Of a DNA stretch of 17,905 nucleotides, positions 2,248-17,905 are shown piece after piece (within the stretch, counting starts at the first letter, position 1; each line of letters opens with the position of its first letter). The DNA lies in NCBI GenBank assembly GCA_027596035.1, contig JADGJA010000460.1, forward strand, positions 1-17,905. Direction: 5' to 3'. The notes under the pieces are model-generated. The model saw only the letters and a list, made by a program, of their open reading frames with translations. It was not told the DNA's origin and did no database searches. Position numbers and translations under genes: made by a program. Origin of the DNA: Thoreauomyces humboldtii (taxonomy: Eukaryota; Chytridiomycota; Chytridiomycetes; Spizellomycetales; Powellomycetaceae).

Positions 2248-3592
2248 GTGCTACACCAGAAGAACAATGACAGAGCTCAGTTAGAGGCCTTGACCTTTGA
2301 TGGCACCTCTTCGGACATATACCATACAAACTTCAACAAGTTGGAGCTGGAAGCTCGACTTGCTGGTGGAATGAACCCGATTCCTGAATCAGATCTCCTT
2401 GCTATGTTCTTTGGTGACTACACCCAACAGGGAGCACTGGGACAAGAATCGCGGATTTTTTGATAGCGCACAAAGTCGTCTGGCCAGATGCAACGTTCCT
2501 TGTCTTACAAGCGATTGGAGACAGCATCAGGCAGCATATGGGCCTGCAGAAGAAAAAGAAGGAGCCCAGATCAGACGGCGATGCCGCCAATGAATCAGCA
2601 AAGACGAAACAGCGGACACAGAACAATAACGTTCAAGCTTGCAAGAAAGAGACCAGTGATCGTGCGAAGAAGTCACCCAACATCTCGAAGGTCAAGTGCT
2701 TCAACTGTCACAAGAAGGGTCATTACGCATCATCCTGTGACCAGCCTTCGGCTAAGAAGGGCAAGAAAGCTCAGGTCAGCCAAGCTGATGTGGATACTGA
2801 GAGCTCACCAGCAGGTTTTCGGAAGGGGCGGCACTGAGGGATCGTGTTTCGCCTGATCAATCAAAATATCCTTCCACAGAGAAGCCGTCGGACGGAAAGC
2901 CCTCGTTAGTCATCATGGAGTTGTTCGTAGTACACAGACAGTATAACAACAGATTTGTCCGCATACTGGTGGACACTGGTTGTGATACCATGATGATGAA
3001 TGGTCGTTTTGCCCGGCGGGCTGGGTTAGAACTGAAGGATGTCGAATCGGTCGATGTCCAGTGGGGTAATGACGGCGGTCACTACTCCAGCAACAAGATG
3101 ACGACCGGAGATCTGACCATTCTGGGGTCAGCTGGGTCAGAATCCATGTTATTGGAGAATACTACATTCCTTGTTGCACCCTTGAGGGTTGACATTATCA
3201 TTGGTACCGCTTTGTTGATGCAGTTCCCATCAATGACGATTATGCGTTATGCGGACCAATGATTAGGCCTGGTGTTAGAGGACACCAATGGTCGAGAATT
3301 CAGATCATTATCACGGATTACACATCGTTGTGCTGACGGTGCTAACTGTAATGCCGCGCATCTTCGATCTTTTCGACCACCACCAAGGATCTCGGTGGAA
3401 GGCAAGAAATAGAAGGCAATCGCAGCAATCTTGGGTGGATTCTGGTTGTCTGGACCTCGTTTCAATCGTATGTTACGAAAGGAACGAGAAGCTCAAGTAT
3501 TTGCAGCCGAGATCGGCGGCGTGAGCGAAAAAGTCACAGCTGACCGAGATCTGACTCCGGACGGTTGCGAGATCACCTCACGACCTCCCCCG
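2248..3592 (+). pseudogene. Ty3-like gag/zinc-knuckle/protease remnant (no RT, RNase H or integrase)
   Basis: The remnant falls in several frames. 2248-2463 encodes a Gag-like segment (LEALTFDGTSSDIYHTNFNK). After a frame change near 2460, a Lys-rich stretch leads to a canonical CCHC zinc knuckle, CFNCHKKGHYASSC (C-x2-C-x4-H-x4-C, about 2698-2739). After another frame change near 2800, 2831-3262 encodes a retropepsin-like aspartic protease with LVDTGCD (about 2965) and a C-terminal VDIIIGTALL motif matching the usual ILG-type strand. Following a TGA at 3260-3262, the same frame remains open to a TAG near 3410, and further retroelement-like coding appears to fade out by about 3590. Reverse transcriptase, RNase H and integrase are absent, so the copy is 3'-truncated. 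The DTG/ILG arrangement favours Ty3 over Copia. Confidence 0.75.
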
Positions 3593-12748: not shown

Positions 12749-13404
12749 CTACTCGACCATCTGGTCACCTTCCTCTTCCTCCTCGTCCTCATCCTCCTCC
12801 TCCTCCTCCTCCTTCCTCTTCTTGCGCTCGATGTCCTCCTTTTCCTCCCTCTTCCGTTTCTTGTTCGCCTTTCTCTTTTCCCGCTGGGCGAGCTTCGTTC
12901 GGATCTGCTCGAGCTCTTCCTGTTCTTCGGTGTCTGCGGAGTCCACCAGATCAAGCCCCTTCTCAATGTTTCGTCGAACGTCCTCTATCGGTTCCCCGAA
13001 ACCAATTGTTTTCATGGGATTGGGACCGGGTGGCCGGTAGACGTCCTTCTCGTCGTCCTTGTCGTCCTTTGCCTCCTCTGGATCCTCGAAGTCCGAGGGT
13101 TCCTCCCGGTCGAAGACCACCTTGCTCTTCGTCTTGATGGTGGTGGTGGTCCTCATCTTTCTCTTCGTAGCCTTCTTCTTCTTCTTCTCAGGTGGGCCGA
13201 GGTAGATTCGGTCTTCAGGGAGGCGTCTGATACATACATATATCAGTAAACGGTCCACTAGTGCATTGGAAGAACTTCCCGCTCATACTTCTTGTCGCCA
13301 CCTCCACCACCACCCCCTCCTCCTCCGCCCGCTCCTCCTGCTGCTGACATCACTGCTACCGCCTTCTTTGCCGCTCTTGCAGGTTGGACTCTACGTGATG
13401 ACAT
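12749..13404 (-). CDS. Low-complexity Gly-, Lys- and Glu-rich protein of unknown function
   Basis: Model: exons 13404-13289 and 13226-12749 on the minus strand; intron 13288-13227 is 62 bp (GTATGA donor, TACTGAT branch, TATCAG acceptor), phase 2; 197 residues. The start at 13404 has A at -3. Order: Arg/Ala N-terminus (MSSRRVQPARAAKK), an 11-glycine run (26-36), the RLPEDRIYLGPPEKKKKK segment, a Thr/Lys patch, an acidic segment, a more ordered middle (PNPMKTIGFGEPIEDVRRNI), then a long Lys/Arg/Glu helix and a C-terminal acidic tail made by CTC/CCT-type triplet repeats. The charged helix and basic clusters suggest a nuclear or nucleic-acid/ribosome-associated protein, but I recognise no family. 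It is divergent from the zinc-finger ORF across 159 bp. Confidence 0.65.
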
Positions 13405-13563
13405 TGTGACGTGTGTTGGTTGTGGTTGTCGGATGTGTTGGTGTTTTTTGTTCTTTGGTATTGGACACTGGGCGAATTGACAGGCTGCGCGGGGAAGCAT
13501 TTCTCGTGGCCATTTTGTTTGTCACAAAGGATAAGTCAACCATCCTTTACTCCCGGAACAAAG
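13405..13563. promoter_or_regulatory. Short divergent promoter region
   Basis: A 159-bp spacer between the minus-strand low-complexity gene and the plus-strand zinc-finger ORF. It is T/G-rich on the plus strand around 13410-13460. No specific element is identified beyond its position. Confidence 0.4.
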
Positions 13564-13848
13564 ATGCCATTCTGCCAGATTTGCCAGATCAACTTCAACG
13601 GCAACTGGGTCACTCATCGATCTACCCAACAGCACCTCCTCAACCAACGCAACGCAGCACCTCCCGTCCAACCTCCTGTAATTCCCACCCTGGTGGACCT
13701 GGGAAGGGACACGGGAGCAGGACCTCTCGCCGCGTACCTCGCCCCTCGGATCGTGCAGATCCGTCAAGCAAATCCAAACCTTTCTGATAGAGAGGTTTAT
13801 CAGCAAGCATTTGGTGAGAGAAGGATTGAGAGGGCCAGGAGATTGTGA
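13564..13848 (+). CDS. Small C2H2 (U1/matrin-like) zinc-finger ORF
   Basis: A 94-residue single-exon frame starts at the ATG at 13564 (MPFCQICQINFNGNW). Residues 4-27 read C-x2-C-x11-H-x5-H, the spacing of U1/matrin-type zinc fingers found in RNA- or dsRNA-binding proteins. The C-terminal half (LAAYLAPRIVQIRQANPNLS, then a basic ERRIERARRL end) looks helical. An in-frame ATG further upstream (13411) would add about 50 hydrophobic residues with no family support; MPFCQ is the natural start for this finger. It is transcribed away from the low-complexity gene and lies about 960 bp upstream of the Fanzor-like gene in the same orientation. Whether it belongs to the same mobile element is unknown. 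It could be a real small host gene or a fragment. Confidence 0.5.
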   Translation: MPFCQICQINFNGNWVTHRSTQQHLLNQRNAAPPVQPPVIPTLVDLGRDTGAGPLAAYLAPRIVQIRQANPNLSDREVYQQAFGERRIERARRL

Positions 13849-13873
13849 AAGAAGCTGATGGGTACATTTTAGC

Positions 13874-13993
13874 TGGTTGGGATGCCCACCCAACCAATCC
13901 TCGAAACATCGGAGCAGAACGACGTCGCCCTTGATTTGATCTATCCATCGTAGTTTCATGGATAGATGGCAACTTCATCAAGGCAACTTCATC
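13874..13993. repeat. Two perfect inverted repeats and a short tandem repeat
   Basis: TGGTTGGG/CCCAACCA (8-bp stem, 7-nt loop) spans 13874-13896. ATCTATCCAT/ATGGATAGAT (10-bp stem, 9-nt loop) spans 13939-13967. GGCAACTTCATC then occurs twice in tandem (13968-13979 and 13982-13993). The first hairpin begins 26 nt after the zinc-finger ORF stop. Confidence 0.7.
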
Positions 13994-14463
13994 GTCGGAC
14001 TCCGTCCTTTCCACTCGCTGTCCCACCTCGAGGACACCCTGTCGAGACACAAGTGTAAGGGTCAGCGACTCGCCAAGCTCATTGGTACCAAGACAACAAC
14101 CGATGCCCAACTGTTCCTTCCATCCCCTCGGTTCATTCGATACCGCCCCAAATCATGCAAAACCCTCTCACAGCCCCTCTCGAACCGGAGCACCCCCTTT
14201 GCGGTCCCTTCGCGATCCCTTCATCCCTTCACCCCTTCCCACACCATCATCCTCCACTCTCACATCGCCTATATAACTAAATCCATGGACTCCCGGATCC
14301 CCCAATAGAAATAACAGACATTCCCACTGTGATAATGCTATGTAGCTTACTCGTATGCACCGTTTCTCATGCTGGTACAAGGTCGAGAGCGACAGGCAGA
14401 GGGACAGGCATCATGTAGCAACATCGGGCTAATGGAATGTGTCCGTCCCGGAGGCCTCCAGTG

Positions 14464-14497
14464 TGACTCATAGCTCCGGATGACTCGCGGTGACTCA
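14464..14497. promoter_or_regulatory. Cluster of three TGACTC (AP-1/Gcn4-like) sites
   Basis: TGACTCA occurs at 14464-14470 and again at 14491-14497, with TGACTCG at 14481-14487 between them, about 315-350 bp upstream of the Fanzor-like start codon. TGA(C/G)TCA is the established consensus of fungal Gcn4/CpcA and AP-1 bZIP factors. Regulation of this gene by such a factor is inference. Confidence 0.45.
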
Positions 14498-14698
14498 CAG
14501 CACCTTGACAGGTTCCGTCCAAATGTGCCGGGTGAATGTGACGGGAGTCTTCCCTTTACCACACTCCATTTAGGCTTGGTATGCCAGGGCATGACAAGCC
14601 TGTCGTCAAAAAGGGAAGACAAGGGCGTCCCGGAAGCATGTGATAGCGGACCAAGCGGATCAGTGGCGCCCGGGCCTCATTGCCACTGCCATGCCCAG

Positions 14699-14707
14699 CA
14701 TAAAAGG
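14699..14707 (+). promoter_or_regulatory. TATA-like element of the Fanzor-like gene
   Basis: CATAAAAGG lies about 105 bp upstream of the start codon at 14812, a plausible core-promoter position. The start itself has an ideal Kozak context (CACCATGG). Confidence 0.4.
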
Positions 14708-14811
14708 CGGCCGGGACGGAGAACCCATCACCGCAAACCACCAGCCCGATACCTCCCGGACCATCCGTCAAGCCAGCAACCGTCCACTGCCTTCCCTGCG
14801 ACTCCCCCACC

Positions 14812-17800
14812 ATGGCGGCATTCGGGCCCGCCCTGAATCGCCGCGCTCCTCCTGCTCCTGGTCCCCACGAGCCATTCCACGATGAGTGGGAGGTAACATG
14901 TCCCCTCGGCAAGTTGAGCAACTTCATCAGGAACAATGCTGGCATCGGAAATCCCAACCTCCGGGGCATAGCCTTGCCTGCAATTCAAGACCGCGTGCAG
15001 ATGATGCACACCCTCACCGTCGACGTCGGCCACCTGCTCTTCATACACCTCACTCGACATGCAACGGCTTTCCTCATGGCGGCTCAGAATGCTGGGGCTG
15101 CAGCCGGCCTACCGATAGGGGATCTGAACATCGCCGGTTTGCCCCTTCTAAACAGCGACTTTGCAACTGATGAAGTCCACCTCATGTGGGCTTACAAGCT
15201 GTGTGGTCGACGAAACGGCTTTGTCCAAGGAAACAACGCCCTTGACCTCACTTACCTCTCGCTCCGACGCTCATACAACATCTATCTGCGACCCACCATG
15301 TACCCAACCTACGTGTGGCCAGTTGGAGTTGCCACGCCAAACCCTCCGCTTCCCGGGGAGAACCCGTCCTACACCCGGATAGTCCTTCCCAACCTCGGGG
15401 TCAACCGGTTTGGCCAGTCCATTACCATCGAGGCCCGACAGTATCTCACCTCCCTCAGGGAGCATTATCGTCGCAACTATGCCGTCTACACGGAGCAGAC
15501 CCTCCTACACCACATGCAACAGGACGCCAACAACAATTGGGGCAAGGAGAGGCGAAAGCTCATCGCCAAACGCACGTTGATGCTGCTCCAGCCTCTCTAC
15601 CTTAACGCAGCGATCGGAGGGAACCCACTCTACCAGATTCCGGACATTGGTGGAGCGAATCCTCCTGGTGCTCAGCCGTTCATCTTCGCGGGCGTCCCAG
15701 CTCATCAGGCGGCCATCGACTCCTACCTCGGTTTCCTCCAACCCATCCGAGAGCTGTTCACGTTTGCCTTCAACCACATGTCAGCCCTGCCGGCTCAAGC
15801 GGGATTGGTTGCTGCCGTTCCTGCTCCGGTGGCGGGAACATATGCTGCGGCTGAGGATGAACTTCACAACGGCGTTTCTTGGCCTATGAACTGGAAGTAC
15901 ATGGCCAAGGGTGCTGGCAACCACGCCTTCCTCCCCCTGTTCTACTGGCTGGCCCGGTACGAGCGCCTCAACAGAAACCCTGCTCCTCCACCTGGTGCAA
16001 ACTGGGCAGACGATTCCATGAGTCCCGTGCTACTGTGCCCCATGCGCAATGATCAAGGTCTTCAGTTTCACCGATTCGACGTCGAGTCCGTGGTTCAACT
16101 CTTCGGAGACGTCAACTTACCCCACATCCGCTGCGTCAACCCAGTTACCGGGGGGGGGCTCCTATTGTCGTGCCTCCGGCTGCCAGGCTCATCCTTACTC
16201 AAGGCCACACCTCCAACCACCGCAATCAACTGATGGAGCAATGGTTTAACCTCAACCGCTGTCGCCAGCTCAGAACCGATCCGTGGGGTGAATGGATGTA
16301 CCGAAACCAAGGGCAGGACCACAACGTGTCCCGTTTCACCTTCAGCACCGACGGGGAGCAAGTACACCTCCACTTCCTTGTCACCGGCTGCGCAGCCAAC
16401 GTTCGAAGAAGGATCCCTACCCACGCCCAGATCAACAACCTGGAACCACGGCCAAACTACAACACACATTACCACGACGAGTTTCGAGTTGTCCGCAGCC
16501 CAGACATCTCTCGAGGCGGCCTCACATCACTTTCTCGACGTCCCATCATCACACGGGACAGAGCATTGATGACACCACTTGGTGCTCGCCGAGTGATTGG
16601 AGTTGATCTCGGTCAGAAGAATTGCATCACCGCCGTGTATGCTGACACCTCTCAGGCTCCCAACGCTCCTCAACCCAACGCGGCCAACCTCAAGATCAAC
16701 ATGAAGGCGGCTTGTCGGCGGGTACGAGGGCGTCACTACCGTGAGAAGAACAAGTCGGCGTGGTTCGAGCGGAAATGCAAAGAGATGCGGAATGCCCAAG
16801 TGAGTGAGGATGAGGTTCGATCATAATAATGCGAGGACCTAACCTATTGTATTCTTTTTTTCTTCAGCAAGAGGAACACGACAACCAGATGGCCGCCTTC
16901 GTTGCCGCTGCCATGGGGGCTGTAGCCCTTCCTGCTCCACCCTGGCGATACAGTTTGATCGAGATGATCGACCTGCTTCGAGGCCGGGTGGCTGCCCTTC
17001 ACGGCAACACCGTTCGGTCCGCGTTGAACTACTTTCACCTTTATTACTCTCTCATTGACGAGATGCGGAGACTTCACAACGGGCGGCTATATCAAAGGTG
17101 CCGCCTGACCCGCAGCATACATCAGCAGAGCACCGACGCTCTGGTTGCCAAGTGAGTTAGTTATACAAACGTGAGCCTTATACAGATGAAAAATCTCATC
17201 CGACCATCTCATCAGCTACATCATTGACCCCACCTACGTCAACGGAAACGGCGTCTCGACCGTAAGCCTAATGTTGAGCACCAACATGTTGCAGGGTAAC
17301 CGAGCAACAAGACGTCAGCCTCTTCAAGCTCTGTTCCCGGTCGTACCTCCTCCCCGGCAAGACCTTCCCATCATCGCGGTGGGAAACGCCAACTACAAGT
17401 TTCAACGGGGACACGGTCCCGTCCCGACCAAGCGTCTCATCACCCAGCTGGCTAGCCGCACAGAGACGGTGATGATGCCCGAGCAGAGAACGGGGATCTA
17501 CTGCCCTCAAGGGATCAACGGTTACGACAACATGATGGGAGCCGCTCTCAATATACCTGTTCCAATGCACAATGCTCGGATAGCCCTTCAGCAGTTCGAA
17601 CGCACGGCGCATCGAGGACGTGATTACAAGTTCAACTACGACTGGTGTATAACCCATCAACGGAAGAAGAGGATGCGCCGTTCCAACTGTCCAGATCAAG
17701 CGGTGCCAGCAGGTCCTCCTGTGTTGCCTCCAGGTGCTCCGCCTCCTCCCTTCAGGAACGCATCCTGGCAGCAGGGAGCACCTCCCGCAGCCCCCAACGG

Positions 17801-17876
17801 ATTCCGCCCTCCCCATGCGCCCTTCCTTGATGGGTTTGGAGCACCGGTTCACTTGATCGGTGGCCATCGTCGGTGA
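14812..17876 (+). CDS. Fanzor-like (eukaryotic TnpB/Cas12-related) RuvC nuclease, frame-broken by a G9 tract
   Basis: Model: exons 14812-16799, 16868-17151 and 17216-17876 with introns of 68 and 64 bp (donors GTGAGT). It gives about 977 residues if one base is added at the G9 tract 16150-16158, where the frame changes; numbering below assumes that. The long helical N-terminal half is alpha/REC-like. Then come a conserved CPMRNDQG segment, the FTFSTDG motif (TDG 513-515) typical of the TnpB/Fanzor wedge region, and RuvC-I RRVIGVDLGQKNCITAVYAD (Asp599). An insert and bridging helices follow, then a RuvC-II-like strand PIIAVGNANYKF (Asn815 where acidic residues are usual) and PEQRTGIYCP with Glu847, fitting the relocated glutamate described for Fanzors. 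The RuvC-III-like motif is GYDNMMGAALNI (Asp862). A basic RKKRMRR (907-913) is NLS-like, and the tail is Pro-rich. The zinc ribbon normally between Glu and RuvC-III is missing. The family would act as an RNA-guided DNA endonuclease carried by transposons; activity of this copy is doubtful. Confidence 0.85.
16150..16158 (+). other. G9 homopolymer at the Fanzor frame break
   Basis: Nine consecutive G residues. Upstream, the conserved frame reads ...HIRCVNP-VTG. Downstream, the conserved frame (GAPIVVPPAARLILTQG) is reached only if the tract had 10 or 7 G. As written, the first frame ends at 16231-16233. This may be a sequencing or assembly error, a true disabling indel, or a slippage site. Confidence 0.85.
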
Positions 17877-17905
17877 GTTACTCTCGTGAGTTTCACTCGC
17901 ATACT
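17877..17905. other. Window end just past the Fanzor-like stop codon
   Basis: Only 29 bases remain. The TGA stop overlaps a GTGAGT that would be a good 5' splice site. No guide RNA region or transposon end can be judged. Confidence 0.6.

Follow-up and report, generated by a model that had tools for sequence, protein, structure and literature searches.

What does the gene at the end of one contig of the chytrid Thoreauomyces humboldtii (family Powellomycetaceae, order Spizellomycetales) encode? The stretch of DNA analysed here, referred to below as the window, is the complete contig C402 of this fungus (17905 nt). The gene sits at the contig end, with its coding sequence on the + strand from an ATG at 14812, and encodes more than 970 amino acids; the public protein is the NCBI gene model HKX48_006158 (P0001). 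An initial annotation had described a long plus-strand gene with a strong Kozak start, and when the coordinates were rechecked the ATG was indeed found in an ACCATGG context. It had also proposed that the product is a divergent Fanzor. We consider it probable that this is a divergent Fanzor1-lineage gene of Powellomycetaceae chytrids, encoding a RuvC-type RNA-guided nuclease of the eukaryotic TnpB family; the contig end cuts the gene short, and its frame is broken once in this assembly. Relatedness to Fanzor1 accounts best for the sequence, and the gene is put forward as a lead, not as a proven enzyme.

Observed directly are a coding sequence with its homologues, relics of further copies, a signature of purifying selection and an ordered set of motifs. 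Searches of a 5.8-billion-protein collection returned only the window protein itself and two proteins of Geranomyces variabilis, namely P0002, which has 972 amino acids and is 38% identical to the window protein, and P0003, which is partial (400 amino acids). These searches gave one match among 7997 scored candidates at E up to 0.001, and two among 4241 and two among 7994 at E up to 10. As the method requires shared exact words, distant relatives may escape it. The G. variabilis gene HDU88_005121 lies on a contig of 254 kb.

Three short motifs carry the argument; like all features of the gene given below, they lie on the + strand. The first, TDG (16347..16355), is kept in all three family proteins and is located 86 residues ahead of the RuvC-I aspartate in the two long ones (the window protein and P0002); a degraded relic on contig C354 carries TGG in its place. 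TDG is given as characteristic of the Fanzor1 WED domain in an excerpt of PMC10711439, and the motif seen here presumably lies within such a domain. The second is the RuvC-I motif IGVDLGQKN (16596..16622), with its aspartate codon at 16605-16607; the aspartate is present in three of three proteins, and the motif aligns with the segment VVVIDPNKRD of SpuFz1. The third is a putative relocated RuvC-II glutamate in EQRTGIYC (17481..17504; E-x2-T-x3-C), with the glutamate at 17481-17483 and the cysteine at 17502-17504, conserved as PERGTSDHC in P0002. The spacing ExxxxxxC is found in both of the proteins that reach this site (EQRTGIYC in the window protein, ERGTSDHC in P0002). In read-through numbering of the window protein, the RuvC-I aspartate is Asp600 and the glutamate Glu848. 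All three motifs had been picked out initially, the glutamate in an E-x-RT-x3-C context, and each proved to be both present and conserved.

The ordered set TDG, D[P/hydrophobic]G, E-x6-C, with generous limits on the spacing, turned up in 9 of 20000 shuffled versions of the window protein and in 5 of 20000 of P0002. Because the pattern was chosen after the sequence had been read, these frequencies are a guide and not a test. With TDG left out, the pattern is common in shuffles (1042/20000 for the window protein and 833/20000 for P0002).

When a profile of the family was aligned by hhalign against one built from pieces of SpuFz1, PpFz1 and GtFz1, a single path of 293 columns was obtained in which the three hallmark sites are in register: TDG falls on TDG, VIGVDLGQKN on VVVIDPNKRD, and MMPEQRTGIYCP on LLDEYKTSSVCP. 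The score of 23.7 was matched by 10 of 400 column-shuffled controls (9 of 300 in an earlier version), and global mode gave nothing. This support appears weak in score and better in register. Among viral contigs, the relocated-glutamate pattern matched one contig, out of frame with its long open reading frame (ORF); the DPG pattern had no match there, and none of 28 pattern matches to the family profile was confirmed.

Several results weigh against a Fanzor1 assignment. No significant match was found in Pfam with exon pieces (E up to 1) or whole proteins (E up to 10), the best lines for the whole proteins (E 0.23 to 0.36) all being to other families, and NCBIfam gave no match at all. PF07282, the C4 zinc ribbon/TNB domain, was not matched at E up to 10; the Pfam scan does work on this genome, since five other loci match PF07282 above cut-off. 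In the PDB, no Fanzor was retrieved at E up to 10 by P0001, by the exon-3 piece or by the two-sequence profile A2. The AlphaFold models had a mean pLDDT of 33.2 from the single sequence and 29.8 from the three-sequence alignment, both unusable. The hhalign comparison carried a P-value of 0.052 and a probability of about 1%, with a top null score of 32.0 against 23.7, and it set a family profile of three members against a Fanzor1 profile built from retyped, X-padded printed pieces of three chains.

Fanzors are recognised, according to an excerpt of PMC10711439, by DPG in the RuvC-I motif and by a glutamate that stands six residues ahead of the first zinc-ribbon cysteine. At the first of these sites the window protein reads DLG and both Geranomyces proteins read DFG; the DPG rule has exceptions, as SpuFz1 itself reads DPN. 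The visible part of the window protein holds no CxxC...CxxC zinc ribbon, and the second ribbon cysteine after ExxxxxxC is absent from both the window protein and P0002; the second half of a C4 ribbon may be located beyond the contig end. An excerpt of PMC3627910 provides a longer Fanzor/TnpB motif, D-X(125,275)-[TS]-[TS]-X-X-[C4 zinc finger]-X(5,50)-RD, which was not found in the window protein, whose 3' exon is missing. Its core, D..[TS][TS]xxC, is present in P0002 and in 1399 of 20000 shuffles, and absent from the window protein (TGIYC). Because the DPG and ribbon fingerprints fail, the gene is not filed as a proven Fanzor. What stands of the divergent Fanzor first proposed is the kinship in motifs, with TDG, the RuvC-I aspartate and E-x6-C conserved and placed on one alignment path; the match to an OrfB, TnpB or Fanzor profile that would go with it was not found.

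It might be argued that the gene is no Fanzor at all, and instead encodes a lineage-specific protein of unknown fold in which TDG, DxG and ExxxxxxC have come together by chance. We regard this as unlikely. It would account for the lack of a significant database or profile match, for a motif set picked post hoc and for an hhalign score near the edge of its null, but it sits poorly with an ordered-set frequency in shuffles of about 0.0003-0.0005, with the same residues being found in Geranomyces and with the co-registration of three sites.

If the gene is of the Fanzor1 lineage, where is its third catalytic residue? SpuFz1 and PpFz1, as printed, have this residue in WNRD, and GtFz1 has it in WNRN. 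By ungapped comparison made by eye, the corresponding place is occupied by methionine in the window protein (YDNMMGAALNI) and by leucine in P0002 (YEQLAAPANQA), with an acidic residue (D/E) two positions upstream. The segment GAALNI (17538..17555) had been taken initially for RuvC-III, a suggestion that is probably wrong, the segment being APANQA in P0002 and hence not conserved. A candidate RuvC-III in the tail of P0002 (RD..AA...FR.I, resembling PpFz1 by eye) was equalled by 714 of 2000 shuffles (1549 of 2000 for SpuFz1), a result that also counts against the Fanzor1 assignment; as it is no better than shuffles, it is not claimed. We infer that the third catalytic carboxylate, and with it RuvC-III, is probably encoded in a missing exon.

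TldRs are prokaryotic, nuclease-dead, RNA-guided repressors derived from TnpB. By analogy, the gene could be a Fanzor1 descendant in which cleavage has been lost or weakened, with the third carboxylate and the zinc ribbon gone, and which, if working, would be an RNA-guided binder. This we consider improbable. The methionine and leucine at the third-residue place, the unseen C4 ribbon and the finding of a single long copy in the genome all speak for it; on the other side, the RuvC-I aspartate and the glutamate are retained, and the third residue may be in the missing exon, P0002 having 110 residues past its sequence GGHRR.

A second question is how the gene is to be read. The frame from the ATG at 14812 is open to 16233, whereas TDG and RuvC-I lie in a different frame, open from 16053 to 16826. 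These two long frames are offset by one nucleotide and meet at a run of nine G residues (16150..16158), a shift that may be a frame break or an assembly error and that was overlooked in the initial gene model. The first-frame part of exon 1 (14812..16158; residues 1-449) is the variable N-terminal half of the protein and, by its position, may be REC-like. Its residues 48-166 are 87% identical to a relic at C354:2241-2597. The second-frame part (16158..16799), which is an open frame and aligns with P0002 and P0003, contains a WED-like TDG segment followed by RuvC-I.

The NCBI model P0001 bridges the frame shift by a 59-nt intron (16086..16144; GTCCGT...ACCCAG), the donor of which, GTCCGT, differs from the GTGAGT seen at the remaining introns. 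Uninterrupted reading of this stretch gives higher alignment scores than the intron does with both homologues (113 vs 89 for P0002, 97 vs 88 for P0003), which makes the intron the less likely solution. Within the stretch the window protein reads ESVVQLF, P0002 DTIQQLF and P0003 ETISQLF, a moderate local match: with P0003, 45 of 5000 shuffles do as well, and with P0002, 473 of 5000. Because the homologues fit uninterrupted reading better, the stretch is probably coding, the intron probably artificial, and the frame probably broken once in this assembly, through either a true mutation or a homopolymer error. Aside from the nine-G site, 977 codons are open across three visible exons.

Two short introns described initially were confirmed, both of them well formed and with GTGAGT...CAG ends: intron 1 (16800..16867; 68 nt, GTGAGT...TTCAG), which yields a spliced protein that fits the NCBI model and aligns with P0002, and intron 2 (17152..17215; 64 nt, GTGAGT...ATCAG). 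Between them, exon 2 (16868..17151) is homologous to P0002 and P0003 and, lying between RuvC-I and RuvC-II, may correspond to the helical RuvC insertion. Exon 3 (17216..17872) contains the relocated-glutamate motif and then a divergent region with a proline-rich linker. Also in exon 3 is the NLS-like RKKRMRR (17661..17681), which had been noted initially and is indeed there, within a conserved WCxxHQxKKRxRxSN block. The introns had been taken as a sign of a long-settled gene; they are real, and on their own nothing unusual, as Fanzor elements carrying multiple-exon genes are already known from the first Fanzor paper (PMC3627910, in excerpt).

The end of the gene at a TGA (17874-17876), as initially drawn, is probably wrong. 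This apparent stop falls within a splice donor, CATCGTCG being followed directly by GTGAGT, at the start of a third intron (17873..17905). A relic on C506 has the GGHRR end of the same exon, then a stretch GTGAGT...ACAG and then KFYCVDD, and P0002 reads GGHRRKLYCFDD uninterrupted at the same place. Since the relic shows an intron there and P0002 reads through, the apparent stop is probably not the gene end. The stop of P0001 inside the donor is probably false, and the true 3' end of the gene would lie beyond the contig, so that the window probably lacks at least one final exon as well as all of the 3' flank. On this comparison the gene appears to have at least four exons.

Is the gene alive? 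Searches of its own genome covered the 20.7-Mb T. humboldtii assembly (823 contigs). With exon pieces as queries, they recovered, besides the window gene, fragmentary sequence from C354, in three stretches, and from C400; exon 3 matched only itself, and DNA searching added the relic on C506. Further copies, which the initial annotation had suggested looking for, are thus represented by relics on three contigs, all of them degraded and with stops, and a second long copy was not found. Comparison with the C354 fragment at 2241-2597 over 119 codons gave dN 0.071, dS 0.289 and dN/dS 0.25, and with a second C354 fragment over 88 codons dN 0.221, dS 1.615 and dN/dS 0.14; the dN/dS for copy B comes from NG86 alone. 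Because of these ratios, the ancestral gene is considered, from the codons compared, to have been under purifying selection. At the locus C354:1-10000, the three fragments of the gene family alternate with copies of another repeated ORF (MPPKKGG...), fragments of which also occur on C719 and C454.

It is possible, though we incline against it, that the window gene is itself a dying or dead copy among relics, whatever its family, a view that is compatible with the other readings. The frame break at the nine-G run and the stop-containing pieces on C354, C400 and C506 would fit such a fate. Against this, the remaining 977 codons are open, the splice sites are clean, dN/dS is well below 1, and a homopolymer assembly error is possible at the G run itself.

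The mobility of a putative Fanzor1 gene has also to be considered. Directly upstream of the gene, a non-coding stretch within 14328-14637 recurs on C757, C630, C439, C610 and C7 at 81-89% identity. No match to the window protein was found in the five fetched flanks of this repeat, and among 11 loci compared the protein was matched only at C354, C400 and C506. The stretch may be a separate repeat, or a gene-less element end like the ORF-less ‘ghost’ elements of Spizellomyces (PMC10432273, in excerpt). Of 19 inverted-repeat pairs in 13380-17905, none made convincing terminal inverted repeats. Spizellomyces offers a standard in SPu-1, for which PMC3627910 gives 17 full-length copies and PMC10432273 gives 19 full-length Fz genes (both in excerpt). 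Since one long copy and few fragments were found, the window gene does not look like a thriving transposon of this type.

By analogy with Fanzor1, the predicted protein would associate with an omega RNA derived from the element's 3' end and would cut target DNA beside a short flanking motif, using its RuvC site. Such Fanzor-like working is plausible; we infer that the gene descends from Fanzor1, that it comes from a mobile element, and that its product is guided by RNA and cleaves. No Rfam family was found at gathering score within the window, which stops short of the 3' flank of the gene, the expected place of a Fanzor omega RNA. A more specific and rather speculative proposal is that the gene represents a Fanzor1 lineage specific to the Powellomycetaceae, of about 1000 residues, in which the proline of DPG and the C4 ribbon were lost and a long proline-rich insertion was acquired. 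Selection would maintain it in very few copies, perhaps in the role of a host gene whose cutting activity is altered or absent.

In the open-licence literature, judged from titles and the starts of abstracts, no paper on this gene was found, nor any Fanzor report for Powellomycetaceae, Geranomyces or Thoreauomyces. A published Fanzor search pattern, as excerpted in PMC10711439, requires DPG followed by ExxxxxxCxxC and a C4 ribbon. If the assignment is true, a lineage that breaks two Fanzor motifs would escape such a pattern search, the known range of eukaryotic TnpB descendants would be widened, and the case would bear on the retention of Fanzors outside high-copy transposons.

Elsewhere the window has ordinary genes, with an MFE-2 type MaoC hydratase, MDM10 and frames with WW and SRI domains. 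Near the opposite end, frames for a zinc knuckle and an aspartyl protease at 2418-3262 are what is left of a retroelement, and more repeated stretches lie within 588-783 and 1167-2127. A small ORF of 94 amino acids at 13564-13848 encodes a C2H2 zinc finger of CIZ1-like type (PF23330, E 1.3e-8). That it forms one unit with the window gene was considered and rejected: apart from itself it matches just one fragment, near the beginning of C404 (C404:62-175), and no relic was found in the 1675 bases of C404 compared.

How does the gene compare with known systems? One of the closest is SpuFz1 of Spizellomyces punctatus (PDB 8GKH), a fungus of the same order; the window gene shares with it the order TDG, RuvC-I aspartate, long insertion and E-x2-T-x3-C. 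Short patterns are also shared, namely TTDG, VVVIDPNKRD beside VIGVDLGQKN in the window protein, and DEYKTSSVCP beside PEQRTGIYCP. The SPu-1 protein has 633 amino acids encoded in one ORF, within a 2.1-kb element that has 33-bp terminal inverted repeats (PMC3627910, in excerpt). The window gene differs from SpuFz1 in encoding more than 970 amino acids, in having introns, in reading DLG and not DPN, and in that no C4 ribbon is visible and element ends were not found. With GtFz1 of Guillardia theta (PDB 9CER) the glutamate regions are alike by eye (GPTP...TVPEHYTSQECPSC beside GPVP...MMPEQRTGIYCPQG). GtFz1 differs in having DPG and a C-x2-C ... C-x4-C ribbon, and an excerpt of PMC11423790 reports that its third catalytic residue is non-canonical, being asparagine.

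T. humboldtii also has, at the five PF07282 loci (C128:21125-21337, C800:7645-7857, C21:27900-28073, C107:15956-16123 and C52:22949-23161), what are apparently genes of Fanzor2/TnpB type. At C800, a weak resolvase-like stretch is seen upstream in the same open frame (E 0.0081, below cut-off), as in IS607-like elements. The window gene shares with these loci the relocated glutamate, which is found as E-x6-C-x2-C in C128, C800, C21 and C107. They differ from it in matching PF07282 and, in C128, C800 and C52, in having DPG; the C800 protein (782 amino acids) is without TDG. Finally, a possible loss of a catalytic residue in the window gene would recall TldR, which differs in being prokaryotic.

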